Source of the DNA: an uncultured Desulfobacteraceae bacterium
GTDB lineage: Bacteria > Desulfobacterota > Desulfobacteria > Desulfobacterales > UBA5852
Direction: 5' to 3'
NCBI GenBank assembly: GCA_913060875.1
Contig: CAJXSL010000011.1
Location: 110,570 to 174,569, forward strand
DNA length: 64,000 nt
This document shows, one piece after another, positions 17,502-27,378 of the stretch (position 1 is its first letter; every line of letters starts with the position of its first letter). The notes below the pieces were generated by a model. The model had not been told where the DNA came from. It searched no databases and saw nothing but the letters and a program-made list of their open reading frames with translations. Position numbers and translations under genes: made by a program.

Positions 17502-17966
17502 TCAGGAAGAAACGCGTTGCGCGCCCAGCACATCGGTTAAGCGCATGCAGTTTTTGCAGATACCGTCCACCCGCACCTCCACCTTGTCGATCCGGCCCGG
17601 GAAGGTCTTCCGGAAGGCATCACCGTCCAGGGGCAGGCTCTCGGGGGAAAGGCATTCCATCTGGCCGCAGCGTTTGCAATAGAAATGGGGATGGGGCCGG
17701 TGATGTTCATTGGGTGCCATGCCGTAGTAGGCCGCCCGTCCGCCGGTGCTGATGCGGTCTACCAGGCCACGGTCCACCAGCAAATCCAAAATGCGGTAGA
17801 CCGTAACACGGTTGATGGCCCCCGAGCGTTGGAGGGTCTTGAAAATATCGCCGGCGGAAAGGGGGTAACTGTTATTCCCGATGACCTCCAGCACCCGCAG
17901 GCGGTTTTCCGTAGCGTCGAGTTTTGCGCGGTGCAGCATGGTTTCATAGTCGCACTGCTCACACAT
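17502..17966 (-). CDS. zur: Fur-family regulator, probably Zur
   Basis: Fur-type repressor of 154 aa starting at ATG 17966 (AGAAGAGG upstream; the track start is an upstream GTG). The winged helix contains LSAGDIFKTLQRSGAINRVTVYRILDLL; the dimer domain has HRPHPHFYCKRCGQMEC and a second CKNC pair, the structural zinc site of Fur proteins. It lies directly downstream of znuB in the zinc uptake unit, so zinc is the likely co-repressor. The candidate operator is the palindrome before znuA. Confidence 0.85.
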   Translation of the reverse strand: MCEQCDYETMLHRAKLDATENRLRVLEVIGNNSYPLSAGDIFKTLQRSGAINRVTVYRILDLLVDRGLVDRISTGGRAAYYGMAPNEHHRPHPHFYCKRCGQMECLSPESLPLDGDAFRKTFPGRIDKVEVRVDGICKNCMRLTDVLGAQRVSS

Positions 17967-18086
17967 GGGCGTACCTCTTCTCACTTTCTTGGCGTGACGT
18001 CCTGGAAACGCGGTTGTCCGGGAAAGCGCCCCGAATGGCCGCCCCTCTCCGGATTCTTCACCGAATGGGGATAAACTGGCACGCCA

Positions 18087-18914
18087 TTAAACCGCGCGCT
18101 TGGCCCTGCGCAGGAGCGTCCAGCGTTCCACCAGCAATACCAGGAAAAAAGCAGCGCCGCCCAGCAGGATAATGCTGGCCCCGGCCGTCAGGTCATAAGC
18201 GTAGGACAGCCACAACCCGCTGACCGTAAACACCGCCCCCAGAACACTGGCGCCGACCATCATCTGGAGCAGCGACTGGGCATATTTTTCGACGATAAAC
18301 GGCGGAATGGTAAGCAGGGCGATGACCAGGATCAACCCTACCACCTGGATCACCATGACGATGGCCACCGCCAGCAGACCAATCAGCGCGAAATACAACC
18401 GTTGCACGGGCACCCCCCGAATCCGGGCGAATTCTTCGTCATAGGACATGGTCAACAGATCCTTGTAGAAGACACCCACGAATCCGGCCACCACCACACC
18501 GGTTGCCAGCATGATCCCCAGATCTCCGGCCGGCACCGTCAAAATGCTGCCGAAGAGATAACTCATCAGATCCACGTTGTAACCGGGCGTCAGGTCCAGC
18601 AGGATGATGCCGATGGCCATCCCCACGGCCCAGATGACACCAATGATGGTGTCGGCCCGGTGCCGGGACCGCAGCGTGACCGCCGCCATGACCAGAGCCG
18701 CCGCCAGGGCAAAGCCGATAGTGCCCGCCAGGTAGGGCCAGCCGAAGAAAAAAGCCATGCCGATACCGCCATAGGCGGCGTGGGCGATACCGCCGGAAAG
18801 AAAAACAATGCGGTTGGCCACCACCAGGGTGCCCATAATCCCGCAGATAATACTGGCCAGCAGACCGGCGGCCAGGGCATGACGCATAAATTCGAATTGC
18901 AGGGCATCCAGCAT
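18087..18914 (-). CDS. znuB: Zinc/manganese ABC transporter permease
   Basis: Integral membrane permease of 275 aa of the ABC-3 family with about eight helices. Family features include VVANRIVFLSGGIAHAAYGGIG near the N-terminus and VVGLILVIALLTIPPFIVEKY. It forms the channel for a divalent metal, here probably zinc because of the flanking Zur-like regulator and histidine-rich binding protein. Its start is 4 nt after the ATPase stop. It is followed by zur. Confidence 0.92.
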   Translation of the reverse strand: MLDALQFEFMRHALAAGLLASIICGIMGTLVVANRIVFLSGGIAHAAYGGIGMAFFFGWPYLAGTIGFALAAALVMAAVTLRSRHRADTIIGVIWAVGMAIGIILLDLTPGYNVDLMSYLFGSILTVPAGDLGIMLATGVVVAGFVGVFYKDLLTMSYDEEFARIRGVPVQRLYFALIGLLAVAIVMVIQVVGLILVIALLTIPPFIVEKYAQSLLQMMVGASVLGAVFTVSGLWLSYAYDLTAGASIILLGGAAFFLVLLVERWTLLRRAKRAV

Positions 18915-18918
18915 GGCA

Positions 18919-19695
18919 TCAATCCTCGTGATGTTTGAGCACGCGGTGGGGCAGCCCGTGGGCCACCAGTTCCACCGGGCAGACGTCTTCCACCGTGCAA
19001 GGGTACATGGTTTCCATCATCTCGCCGGTGATCTCGGCCTCGTGGTGGTAGTGCAGACGTTTGTTCACGCAGGCCACGGATTTCACATAGGTTGAGACGA
19101 CCAGGAGATCATGACTCACCACCAGGATAGTAACCTCCCGGTTCAAATCCTTCAGCATCCGGAAAAAATCCGCCTGCCCCTTGGTATCGATGCTGGCGGT
19201 TGGTTCGTCCAGCAGCAGGAGCCGGGGCGCCGTGACCAAGGCCCGGGCGATGAAAACACGCTGGCGCTGCCCGCCGGAAAGTTCACCGATCCGGCGGCCG
19301 GCAAAGGCCGCCATTTCCATTCGTTCCAGGGCGCCCAGGGCTTCGCGGCGATCTTGGGCCGTGTGGCGCGCCCACCGTCGCCGGGGATCCAGTTTGCCCA
19401 TGAGCACGACGTCCAGTGCCGTGATGGGAAAACGGCGGTTGATATGGACATCCTGGCGCACGTAGCCGATCTGATGGGTCGCCCCGCCGGTGGCCTCGCC
19501 CAGCACCCGGATGCGGCCGGTATCCGGCTTGAGCAGCCCCAGCATCAGCTTCAGCAGGGTGGTCTTGCCGCCGCCGTTGGGCCCGATCACGGCCACGAAA
19601 TCCCCCTGGGGGATGGCCAGATTGACGTTCTCCAGAACGGGCTGGCCGTTATAGGCGAAGGAAACGTTTTCGATGTCGATGACAGGGGATGACAT
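18919..19695 (-). CDS. znuC: Zinc ABC transporter ATP-binding protein
   Basis: ABC ATPase of 258 aa: Walker [11 protein letters not shown]-loop YVRQD, signature LSGGQRQR, Walker [12 protein letters not shown]-loop VVSHD. The C-terminal tail holds His and Cys residues ([29 protein letters not shown]), a feature of metal-transport ATPases of this type. It powers metal uptake with the adjacent permease and the binding protein. A 144-bp MITE-like element separates it from znuA. Confidence 0.93.
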
Positions 19696-19732: not shown

Positions 19733-19876
19733 AGTGTTCGTCCAGAGATGGTAGATTTTGGTTTCGAGCAAGGTCTGGGCGATTTTGAAACCGCAGGAAT
19801 AGTGGACTATTTCGAGGATTTCAAAAGAGCGAAAACGCCGCTCGGGGCCAAAAGATGCCATTTATGGATGGACACT
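19733..19876. mobile_element. MITE-like element, copy 3, between znuA and znuC
   Basis: Element of 144 bp with ends AGTGTTCGTCCAGAGATGG and ATTTATGGATGGACACT. Its interior matches copy 1 (GATTTTGGTTTCGAGCAAGG, GGAATAG-GGACTATTTCGAGGATT, AACGCCGCTCGGGGCC). The last bases contribute to the TAG stop of znuA, suggesting insertion at the gene end. It may add an intercistronic hairpin. Confidence 0.7.
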
Positions 19877-20855
19877 ATTTAAGGGCCGCCTCGAACTTAC
19901 CGGCAACCACGCGCATGTTCTCCAGCCAGTTCAAAGCCAAAGGATCGGCAGCCACAACCTGACCGCCGATTTCCCGGGCAACGAGCTTGGCCCGTTTGGT
20001 TGAAAACTGGGGCTGGACAAAAATAACCTTGATTCCTTCTGAGCGGGCCGCGGCGATCAACGCCTGAAGCTGGGCCGGTTTGGGATTTTTACCCTCGATC
20101 TCGATGGGCACCTGCACCAGGCCGTAGTCCCGTGCAAAATAGCCCCAGGCCGGGTGAAATACCATGAATTGAAGATCCTCCTTGCCGGCAAAAATCTTTT
20201 TCAGATCGGCGTCCAATTGATCGATTCGCGCTGCAAAATCTCTGAAGTTGCTCTCATAGACATTCCGATGCCCGGGGTCGGCCTCCTTGAGCGCATTCAA
20301 AATGGCGCGGGCCTGAATCTTTACAAGCTGCGGCGACAGCCAGATATGAGGATCGAGACCGGCATGTTCATGGTGATCTTTATCATGTCCGGCATCCCCA
20401 TGGTGCTGGCGCTTTTCATGGTCATGGTGACCCTCGGCGTGGTGCCCGCTCTCTTGGGATTCACCTTCGTCATGGTGTTCGGTATCTTCCCTATCATGAT
20501 GGTGGGCTGCCATCGCGCGTTTTTCGATGCCGTGATCCGTGTGAACGACCTCCATTGCGGGATTGGCGGCCGCTATTTTTTCCAGCCAGACGTTTTCGAA
20601 CGGAACGCCGACCGCAAAATAAAGCCGGGCTTCGGACAGGGCCGCCATCTGGCGTGGCTTGGGTTCATAGGTGGCCGGACTGGCGCCGGGTTGGACCATC
20701 AACTGGACGTCCACCCGATTGCCGCCAATTTGTTGCACAAAAAATTTCTGGGGCTGGATGCTCACGAATACCGGCAGGGGTTTATCGGCCTGAGCATGTG
20801 TATTCCCCGTCAAGCAGATGAAAAGTAAAGAAATAGTATAAGCCAGATGTTTCAT
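19875..20855 (-). CDS. znuA: Zinc ABC transporter substrate-binding protein
   Basis: Periplasmic cluster-9 metal-binding protein of 326 aa. ATG at 20855 follows GGAGGT and yields a signal peptide (MKHLAYTISLLFICLTG, cleavage near THAQA). The fold shows VFVSIQPQKFFVQQIGG and the metal-site regions. A loop of about 60 residues with more than 20 histidines, mixed with Asp/Glu, precedes AGLDPHIWLSP; such His-rich loops mark zinc-specific binding proteins. It delivers zinc to ZnuBC. A 19-bp palindrome lies about 50 nt upstream. Confidence 0.93.
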   Translation of the reverse strand: MKHLAYTISLLFICLTGNTHAQADKPLPVFVSIQPQKFFVQQIGGNRVDVQLMVQPGASPATYEPKPRQMAALSEARLYFAVGVPFENVWLEKIAAANPAMEVVHTDHGIEKRAMAAHHHDREDTEHHDEGESQESGHHAEGHHDHEKRQHHGDAGHDKDHHEHAGLDPHIWLSPQLVKIQARAILNALKEADPGHRNVYESNFRDFAARIDQLDADLKKIFAGKEDLQFMVFHPAWGYFARDYGLVQVPIEIEGKNPKPAQLQALIAAARSEGIKVIFVQPQFSTKRAKLVAREIGGQVVAADPLALNWLENMRVVAGKFEAALK

Positions 20856-20905
20856 AAAGCACCTCCAGACAATTTGGTGGCTCCCTAAAAATACCACGAC
20901 GGGAA

Positions 20906-20924
20906 CATGCAAATTTATTGCATG
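20906..20924. promoter_or_regulatory. Candidate Zur operator upstream of znuA
   Basis: Perfect inverted repeat CATGCAA-ATTTA-TTGCATG (7-bp arms, 5-nt centre) 51 nt before the znuA start. Position and symmetry fit a Fur-family dimer site controlling the zinc uptake operon. Binding by the Zur encoded at 17502 is inferred. Confidence 0.6.
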
Positions 20925-21018
20925 GAATAATCGATTTCAAGGGCATGTTTCAGAAAAATACGGTTATCGTGCCGTGATTGCCGGCCCTTTGTGCAGGGCA
21001 GGAGGCCGGAAACGAGTG

Positions 21019-23001
21019 CTATGACACCGGATCCAAAATTTGCCGAATCTTCTGGGAGACATCGGCGATACTGAAGGGTTTTTGAATAAATCCATTGCAT
21101 CCCCGGCTCATAATTTCGGCCGCCTGGCCTTCGATGGCATAACCGCTGGACAAGAGAATGGGCATGGCCGGATATTTTTGACGAATTTGGTCGAAAACTT
21201 TGCCGCCGTCCATGTGGGGCATGATCAGGTCAAGAATCACCAGGTCGATTGCGTCTCCCCGCGCCGAGACCATTTCGATGGCCTGGGGACCGCCTTCGGC
21301 CACCAGAACCTGGTAGCCCAATTTCCTGAGCATGGCCTGGCCCACCTGGATAATCATTTCTTCGTCATCCACCAGGAGAACGGTTTCCGATCCTTTGACG
21401 ATGCGCGTCGGGGCGTCCGGTCCGTGGTTCACGTCCTTTTTCGATACCGGCAGAAAAATGGTGAAGGTACTGCCACGACCGACTTCGCTGGAAACCGTAA
21501 TGAATCCGTTGTGATTCTTGATGATGCCGTAGGCCGACGCCAATCCCAAGCCGGTGCCCCATTCTTTGTCTTTGGTGGTAAAAAAAGGATCGAAAATCCG
21601 TTGGCGGGTCATTTCATCCATGCCGATGCCGGTATCCCTGGCCGCAATCCGCACATAATGACCCGGAGGGACTTCATGAGGTTGGCAAGAGGCCTCGTCC
21701 AAAATGACAATGCGGGTTTCTATGGAAAGTTCACCGCCACCCGCCATTGCCTGGGCGGCGTTGACGTAGATATTGAGAAGCACCTGTTCGATCTGAGACC
21801 GGTCGACCTCGGCAACCACCGGTCCCGGCGCCATCTTCAGGCCGATCTGGATCTCCTTGCGCGTGCGGCCGAACATGGTGACACTCTCAGTTACCAGTGC
21901 ATTCAAATCGATTGGTTTGGGTTCGTATTTGCCGCCGCGGGCGATACCCAGCAATTGCTTGGTCAACCCGGTCGCACTGCGGATGTGATCTTCGATGGCC
22001 TTGATATGCTCCTGATGAGGGTCGTCCGTTGCCAGATCCACCCCCATCAGTGAGGCTCGCCCCTGCATGCCCAAGAGGAGATTGTTGAAATCGTGGGCGA
22101 TACCGCCCGCCAGCGTGCCGATGGCCTCCATTTTCTGGACCTGGATAATCTGTTTTTGAAGCTTGACCCTGTCGGTGACGTCCCGCACGAATTCGACCAC
22201 CCCCGTAATTTCATCTTTCTCCTGGTCTTTGAGGGGATAACTGAAAACCTCGAGCCATTCCGCCGAGGAGCCCGGCAGCCCCGGAACAAGATTCGACTCG
22301 GTCTTCCCGCTGGCAAATGCCCTTCGCGTCGGGCAGGGATCGCAGGCGGTGTCGTTACCATGATAGGCCTTGAAACATTTCTGTCCCACCAGCGGGCCGC
22401 TTTCTTTGTACCACTCCCGCATGACCGCGTTGGTGTGCACGATGGTGTACTCGCGATCCAGAACGCTCATACCGTCCTGAATGCTCTCGATGACATTTTC
22501 CAGAAAGTGCTTGTTGGCTCTGAGCTCCTCCCGGGCCTGCATGCTATCGGTAATATCTTCCCCGGTGCAGACGACGTAGACAACATCACTATTTTCATCC
22601 AATCTGGGGGTTTTGGTGAACCTGAACAGTCTTTTTTCACCGTCCGCCCGTTGCATCCATTCCTCGGTGACGATCTGCTTCTTCTCCCTGAAAATACGCA
22701 GGTTGCCCTGCTCGCAGACGATGGCCTCTTCGGTCGAAAGCATATCATAAAGGTTTTTGTACGCCAGATCGCGTTTGTGGGCGCCGAAGAAATCGGCATG
22801 GGCTTTGTTGACCATTCCGTAAGTCGACGGGTCGGACAGATAAAAAACGTGGGTGTCGATGGTATCCAGCAGCAGCAAATGCTCATCGATTTTGGCACTT
22901 GCGTCGTGGGTCTCCCGCGCGCGTTCTAGTTCGGTATTCCGTTGGCGGAGCAATAGCAGTTCTTCAAGGAGTTCCTCCCGGCTCTTGTCGGCATCTTGCA
23001 T
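21019..23001 (-). CDS. Soluble PAS-PAS hybrid histidine kinase with receiver
   Basis: Cytoplasmic kinase of 660 aa without membrane segments: N-terminal coiled coil, PAS 1 (about 40-150), PAS 2 (about 165-285) with the cysteine cluster [16 protein letters not shown], DHp domain with [14 protein letters not shown], ATPase domain ([32 protein letters not shown]) and a C-terminal receiver ([24 protein letters not shown]). The Cys-rich PAS may bind a cofactor or respond to redox. GGAGGAG precedes the ATG. No partner gene is adjacent; it faces the znu promoter region with its 3-prime end. Confidence 0.92.
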
Positions 23002-25401: not shown

Positions 25402-27378
25402 GTGAAACATCTCCATGCTTTACTGGTAATCGCCATGCTCACCGTCGTCGCGGCCTGCACACCGGAGCCTGGCGAGAATGCAGATGCCTCCGGTTTCAGT
25501 GCCCCATCGAAAATCACGCGTAAGGCCAATGAACGCGTGCGGGAGGAACTTCCCATAGACGACCCGGCCGATTTTAAGGAGGCCCGGCAGGGCCTGATTG
25601 CGGCGGCCCCACAGCTTCAGGTCAAGGATGCCGAGGGGGCTTTCCTATGGGACATGGAGCGCTTCGGCTTCATCGATGGAACGGCGCCGGCCAGCGTCAA
25701 CCCGAGCCTGTGGCGCCAGGCCAAGCTCAACAATATCCACGGCCTGTTCGAAGTCACAGAGGGCATCTACCAGCTGCGGGGATTCGATCTGGCCAACATG
25801 ACCCTCATCGCGGGTGAATCCGGATGGATTATCGTGGACCCGCTCACCACCCGGGAAACGGCCGCCGCGGCCCTCGCCTTTGCCGAGCAGCACCTGGAGC
25901 GCAAACCGATTGCGGCCATCATTTTCACCCACAGCCACATCGACCACTTCGGGGGGGCGCTGGGCGTTATTTCCGCCGCGGAGGCGATCGAACGCGCCAT
26001 ACCGGTCATTGCGCCCAAAGGCTTCATGGCCGAGGCCACCAGCGAGAATGTCATCGCCGGCATCGTCATGGGCCGCCGGGCCGCCTACCAGTTCGGCCGC
26101 CCCCTGCCGGCGTCGGAACGCGCCTACGTGGATACAGGGCTGGGCAAAGCGGTCCCTTTCGGCCAGTATGGCATCCTGGCACCAACCCGGACAGTCGACC
26201 ACACGCCCCAGGAAATGATGATCGACGGTGTGCGTTTCATTTTCCAGTATACACCCGAATCGGAAGCCCCGGCCGAGCTGACGTTTTATCTGCCCGATCA
26301 TAAAGCCTTCTGCGGCGCCGAGATCGTCTCGCGCAACATGCACAACCTCTATACCTTGCGTGGGGCCAAAGTGCGCGACGCCCTCAAATGGAGCCATTAT
26401 ATCGGTGAGGCCATGGACCTTTTCGGGGAAGCCGAAATATATTTCGCCTGCCACCACTGGCCCATCTGGGGTCGCCATAAAATTTTAAACTTCCTCGAAA
26501 AACAGCGGGATCTCTACAAATACATCCATGACCAGACCATGCGCCTGGCCAATGCCGGCTATACGCCCCGGGAAATTGCGGATCAGATCGTCCTGCCGGA
26601 AGCATTGGACCGCTTCTTCCCCAACCGCGGTTATTACGGAACCCTCAGCCACAACACCAAAGCGGTTTATCAAGGTTATCTGGGATGGTACGACGGCAAC
26701 CCCGCCAACCTCAATCCCCTGCCCCCGGCGGCCGCGGCCAAACGTTATGTGGACTACATGGACGGTGCGGATGCGATACTGGCCAAAGCCCGCCAATCCT
26801 TCGGTGAAGGCGATTACCGTTGGGTTGCGGAAGTCCTCAACCACCTGGTCTTTGCCGAGCCGGACAACCGGGAGGCCAAGGCGCTCCTGGCACGCACCTA
26901 CGATCAATTGGGCTACCAGGCCGAATCCGGCGTGTGGCGCAGTGAATATCTGACCGCGGCCTATGAACTCCGGCACGGGGTAATGGACCAGGGAGTGGAT
27001 CTGTCCAAAGCCTATGAATTGCTCAAACGCACGCCCCTGCCGCGCTTTTTCGACAGCATGGCCGTAAGGCTGGACGGCCCCGCGGCCGCCGGCAAAAAGC
27101 TGGCCCTCGATATTGTCTTTACGGATATCGGGGAAAGTTATCGGCTGGAATTGAAAAATGCGGTGCTGCACCACAAAGCGTCCATGCCGTCAGAGGATGC
27201 CGACGTCACCCTGGAAGTGACCCACGATCTGTTCGTGCGCATGCTCACCGGCCTGGCCGGCCTTAAAGAAACCATTTTCTCGGACGACCTGAAAATTTCC
27301 GGCAGCCGCCTGGACCTGTTGAATTTTCTCCGGCTACTGGATCGCCCCAAGGCCAATTTCAATATCGTCACGCCCTGA
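25402..27378 (+). CDS. Alkyl/aryl-sulfatase lipoprotein (SdsA/BDS1 family)
   Basis: Zinc metallo-beta-lactamase-fold sulfatase of 658 aa, starting at GTG with GGAGG upstream. It has a lipoprotein signal (lipobox VAAC, Cys19), placing it on the envelope. The metal motif is THSHIDHFGG (His177, His179, Asp181, His182), with further ligands in the AEIVSRNMHNLYTLRG and ACHHWPIWG regions. The alkylsulfatase dimerisation domain follows and the last 120 residues are the SCP2-like domain that binds the alkyl chain. It should hydrolyse primary alkyl sulfates such as dodecyl sulfate to alcohol plus sulfate. It is bracketed by two copies of a structured repeat. Confidence 0.92.
   Translation: MKHLHALLVIAMLTVVAACTPEPGENADASGFSAPSKITRKANERVREELPIDDPADFKEARQGLIAAAPQLQVKDAEGAFLWDMERFGFIDGTAPASVNPSLWRQAKLNNIHGLFEVTEGIYQLRGFDLANMTLIAGESGWIIVDPLTTRETAAAALAFAEQHLERKPIAAIIFTHSHIDHFGGALGVISAAEAIERAIPVIAPKGFMAEATSENVIAGIVMGRRAAYQFGRPLPASERAYVDTGLGKAVPFGQYGILAPTRTVDHTPQEMMIDGVRFIFQYTPESEAPAELTFYLPDHKAFCGAEIVSRNMHNLYTLRGAKVRDALKWSHYIGEAMDLFGEAEIYFACHHWPIWGRHKILNFLEKQRDLYKYIHDQTMRLANAGYTPREIADQIVLPEALDRFFPNRGYYGTLSHNTKAVYQGYLGWYDGNPANLNPLPPAAAAKRYVDYMDGADAILAKARQSFGEGDYRWVAEVLNHLVFAEPDNREAKALLARTYDQLGYQAESGVWRSEYLTAAYELRHGVMDQGVDLSKAYELLKRTPLPRFFDSMAVRLDGPAAAGKKLALDIVFTDIGESYRLELKNAVLHHKASMPSEDADVTLEVTHDLFVRMLTGLAGLKETIFSDDLKISGSRLDLLNFLRLLDRPKANFNIVTP

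Follow-up and report, generated by a model that had tools for sequence, protein, structure and literature searches.

A 17-bp palindrome in front of znuA is, with a probability that we put at about 0.9, the operator of Zur, the zinc repressor of the Fur family (Zur_D group) whose gene is last in the same operon. It lies in a 64,000-nucleotide stretch of DNA from an uncultured Desulfobacteraceae bacterium, hereafter the window. The site, the operon, its conservation, its linkage to zur and its overlap with the promoter can all be read directly from sequence, and the decisive evidence for the predicted Zur box is comparative rather than its palindromy.

The znu-zur operon and its palindrome

The operon has the order znuA, znuC, znuB and a fur-family gene (zur), so that the preliminary description of an operon ending in a Zur-like gene was correct. 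Its features, in window positions, are:

17502..17984, minus strand: zur, Fur family, Zur_D-like, last operon gene (FUR domain, orthologue comparison, tree)
18087..18914, minus strand: znuB, ABC-3 permease (domain and family matches)
18919..19695, minus strand: znuC, ATP-binding subunit (domain and family matches)
19875..20855, minus strand: znuA, zinc-binding protein that has a His-rich loop (nearest relative of solved structure: Synechocystis ZnuA, 1PQ4)
20860..20866, minus strand: Shine-Dalgarno sequence GGAGGTG of znuA (direct reading)
20906..20924, no strand: 19-bp palindrome at its originally described extent (sequence reading)
20907..20923, no strand: predicted Zur operator core, ATGCAA-N5-TTGCAT, the conserved 17 bp (comparison of znuA upstream regions)
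20912..20917, minus strand: predicted -10, TAAATT (4/6), inside the operator with a 17-nt spacer to the -35 (sequence and relatives' spacing)
20935..20940, minus strand: predicted -35, TTGAAA (5/6) (direct reading; same spacing enriched in relatives)

The znuA start codon is the ATG at 20855 (minus strand), preceded by GGAGGTG; a longer, mechanically listed znuA reading frame, with a TTG start inside the palindrome, lacks such ribosome-site support. The letters at 20906-20924 are exactly CATGCAAATTTATTGCATG, with the perfect symmetry first noted, and 50 nt separate the box from the start codon, in agreement with the '51 nt before' given earlier. Upstream of znuA the next gene, for a hybrid histidine kinase (21019-23001), is also on the minus strand; the palindrome sits in the 163 nt that separate the two. 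At up to one mismatch the 19-mer is the sole copy in the 5.88-Mb genome, and the chance expectation of a perfect 7-5-7 palindrome in a 95-nt promoter stretch is ~0.007. The window as a whole contains 11 palindromes of this shape where 4.5 are expected, so symmetry alone is weak evidence. The 19-bp extent did not hold up as the operator: positions beyond the 17-bp core are not conserved, and the outer C/G, which vary, are incidental. Elsewhere in the window, 25402-27378 encodes an alkyl sulfatase-type metallo-beta-lactamase (Alkyl_sulf_dimr and Alkyl_sulf_C domains).

The zur product has a FUR domain (PF01475, E 7e-14) and two structural CxxC pairs (C103/C106 and C143/C146), with all four cysteines present in 79 of 83 orthologues; H98, H100 and C111 are also near-invariant. 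Its start is probably the ATG at codon 7. In a tree that covered the Desulfovibrionaceae through locus L077, with D. vulgaris itself left out, the window Zur grouped with the L077 Zur (34% identity, 93 bits) and separately from the rest of the Fur-family proteins in the tree. Against the E. coli-type Zur equivalog model (NCBIfam PRK11639) it scored 32.4 bits, far below the cut-off of 167, and membership is therefore claimed for the Zur_D group only, as a predicted orthologue of Desulfovibrio Zur_D.

Conservation at znuA promoters

ZnuA relatives were drawn from 80 genome contigs, and the zur product was searched over 292 genomes of the window's order, where a clear gap separated true orthologues (E ~1e-34 or better) from other Fur-family proteins (mostly 1e-12 or worse). 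The upstream set comprised 128 distinct znuA regions, 69 with an adjacent zur orthologue and 59 without. The core was present at up to one mismatch in 60 of the 69 zur-linked promoters (exactly in 44) versus 14 of the 59 others, counts that are inflated by relatedness among genomes, although many families contribute. This tracking of an adjacent zur supports the earlier proposal of a Zur box. As a control, the 119 other distinct permutations of the arm letters never exceeded 1 of the 69 zur-linked promoters, and spacers other than 5 nt gave zero exact core matches in the same znuA upstream comparison. Nine of the 69 had no clear box.

Within the window's genus and family, znuA was found in three genomes (G001, G003, G005), and all three have a one-mismatch box, roughly 160-200 nt upstream of the gene; the other two close-relative genomes, which are incomplete, yielded no strong znuA. 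Lack of conservation upstream of znuA orthologues had been named in advance as the outcome that would speak against the proposal, and both the zur-linked promoters and the close relatives show the opposite. Over whole genomes, zur was associated with the box at an odds ratio of 3.7 (p 4e-6, kinship between genomes ignored). Genome-wide counts of exact matches are weak evidence on their own, as across the order they are often chance hits inside genes.

Promoter overlap and alternative readings

Read on the strand of znuA, the predicted promoter of the window is TTGAAA-N17-TAAATT, with TAAATT at box positions 7-12. The inner part of the box (T, A, N, A, G/T, T) is similar to a -10 hexamer, and in 24 of 73 sites a -35 that matches at least 5/6 of TTGACA is found 16-17 nt ahead of box position 7, compared with a mean of 0.7 and a maximum of 5 in 2000 shuffles; at most other spacings there were nearly no such matches. 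G001 repeats the layout of the window (TTGAAA-17-TAAAGT), and G005 has TTGACA-17-TATATT. In a smaller group of promoters TTGAC immediately precedes the box, which then lies between -35 and -10. In both layouts a dimer on the box would keep RNA polymerase out.

We infer Zur binding, zinc dependence and repression at the box. With enough zinc, a Zur dimer would occupy the two ATGCAA half-sites; as the palindrome's spacer holds the -10 hexamer, with the -35 17 nt upstream, the dimer should block RNA polymerase. When zinc falls, Zur would leave and znuACB-zur would be transcribed; the outcome would be high-affinity import of zinc under negative autoregulation. The overlap of box and promoter thus points to steric repression combined with autoregulation.

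Is the operon's own zur product the protein that binds? In three genomes (G281, G096 and G118) the box is kept at znuA and no zur orthologue was detected in the search over the 292 genomes. G281 is a single contig rated 100% complete, and it and G096 are Desulfobacter-type; in the same genus, G252 and G257 have zur in the znu cluster, directly after znuB in G252. The Desulfobacter-type loci L231 and L232 have a box before znuACB with no zur detected, and the same-genus locus L228 has zur right after znuB. The box may have outlasted a recent loss of zur because the -10 lies within it, or else a different protein binds there. That a different Fur-family protein (Fur, PerR or a second Zur-like regulator) binds the box appears improbable, as the box follows the operon-type zur; at the 8 znuA loci where the one Fur-family gene nearby is a different and weakly similar one, it was never found (best match at least 3 mismatches). 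A second Fur-type regulator with another palindrome does occur in the window's order, but it goes with TATTGCAA-N6-TTGCAATA.

The gene for this second regulator is divergent from a ZnuA-type binding protein gene (L326, L327, L328 and L330; also L016 and L025, and putatively L329). The intergenic region that the two genes share contains TATTGCAA-N6-TTGCAATA at 0-1 mismatch, and 61 of the 292 genomes have such a site. A literature search for this regulator and palindrome found no description.

A still less probable reading keeps the operator and the regulator but makes manganese the metal sensed and imported. The best NCBIfam match of the binding protein is indeed the manganese MntC model, below its cut-off. 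However, its best solved relative is the zinc-uptake protein ZnuA of Synechocystis, and the match to 1PQ4 at E 1e-71 supports zinc; the protein also has a long His-rich loop, and in relatives the box precedes a DUF3299/MacB operon of a kind under Zur control. A chance palindrome or an RNA hairpin with no regulatory role, for which the excess of 7-5-7 palindromes in the window might speak, is extremely improbable and already contradicted by the comparison, since the half-sites are conserved base by base over many families while their flanks diverge, and since a box that overlaps the -10, as in many of these promoters including that of the window, would fall largely upstream of the transcript start.

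Further candidate targets and known Zur systems

The suggestion that other zinc genes carry the box held in some relatives (a TonB receptor, a DUF3299/MacB operon and a dksA paralogue) but failed in the window's own genome, where no second box was found near a recognisable zinc gene; about half of its other one-mismatch core sites are intragenic, and none precedes such a gene. Exact boxes stand before second or separate znuA loci in G115 and G280. In L323 an exact box is followed by a small His/Cys-rich protein, an ABC ATPase, a MacB-like permease and a DUF3299 protein, and in L261 by a similar small protein and a TonB receptor. The ATPase, permease and DUF3299 set of L323 resembles Pseudomonas PA4064-PA4066, of which PA4066 is presumably the DUF3299 member. 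PA4064-PA4066 belong to a Zur-regulated operon (PMC11481552). In L244 an exact box lies at a DksA-like gene that is transcribed away from feoA/feoB.

Small His/Cys-rich putative exported proteins come right after boxes at L195:3935-4132, L261:4050-4448 and L323:1433-1870; Pfam gave no match for those of L261 and L323. The dksA-like gene beside the L244 box (L244:3395-4006) has a C4 zinc finger that looks degenerate, as in zinc-independent DksA paralogues, and another dksA-like gene is directly downstream of znuA in L013 (L013:5001-6479). We regard it as about an even bet that in this lineage operator and -10 form a single fused sequence (TTGACA-N11-ATGCAA[TATAAT-like]TGCAT) which limits how the operator can evolve and may persist after the repressor gene is gone, as in the Desulfobacter-type genomes, and that the regulon of some relatives also takes in a TonB receptor, a DksA paralogue and a DUF3299/MacB operon that looks like one for metallophore export.

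E. coli-type Zur is a Fur-family repressor of znu genes with a palindromic operator that overlaps the promoter. It shares with the window a Fur-family znu repressor, whereas its TGTTATA-type operator is different in sequence. The Geobacter Zur_Gs box, TAAATCGTAATNATTACGATTTA, also belongs to a zinc operon of a deltaproteobacterium, but its motif differs and its regulator is reported not to be closely related to Zur_D (PMC545781). For Zur, RegPrecise 3.0 has regulogs in >25 taxonomic groups, and for Desulfovibrionales it has 92 factor regulogs; the portion of its text examined states no Zur motif.

The proposal that the motif newly defines this lineage was overtaken by the literature: Rodionov et al. 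(2004) described essentially the same box for Zur_D, predicting ATGCAACnnnGTTGCAT in front of znuABC-zur_D in two species of Desulfovibrio, with ATGCAACNNNGTTGCAT reported in D. vulgaris and D. desulfuricans and no such box found in Desulfotalea psychrophila (PMC545781). The Desulfovibrionaceae locus L077 has ATGCAACTCAGTTGCAT at -48, and the reverse complement is the published D. desulfuricans site (-47). DVU1340 is probably the D. vulgaris zur_D; the paper that names it treats it as an iron regulator, without mention of zinc. We found no paper that extends ATGCAA-N5-TTGCAT to Desulfobacter-type genomes.

The window shares with Desulfovibrio the 17-bp palindrome with ATGCAA/TTGCAT half-sites, the znu-zur gene set with zur last, and a box before znuABC with zur in the same operon. 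Its site agrees with the consensus ATGCAAC-N3-GTTGCAT at 12 of 14 positions: both ATGCAA half-sites are exact, and the inner C/G is not. Positions 7/11 are C/G in Desulfovibrio and A/A in the window, which is of a different order, and across that order they vary (T/C/A at position 7, G/T/A at position 11). The site is thus a member of the kind of Zur_D box predicted in 2004, and not new. What is added here is the extension of the box to the window's order, extra candidate targets in relatives, and the overlap with the promoter: the -10 inside the box, which is evident in many of the promoters compared here, is a difference from the published Desulfovibrio box and gives a testable mechanism of repression. 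The motif can serve to look for genes of zinc starvation in little-studied lineages of sulfate reducers, and a prediction from two genomes becomes, on comparative grounds, a well-supported candidate operator across an order, widespread in related sulfate reducers.
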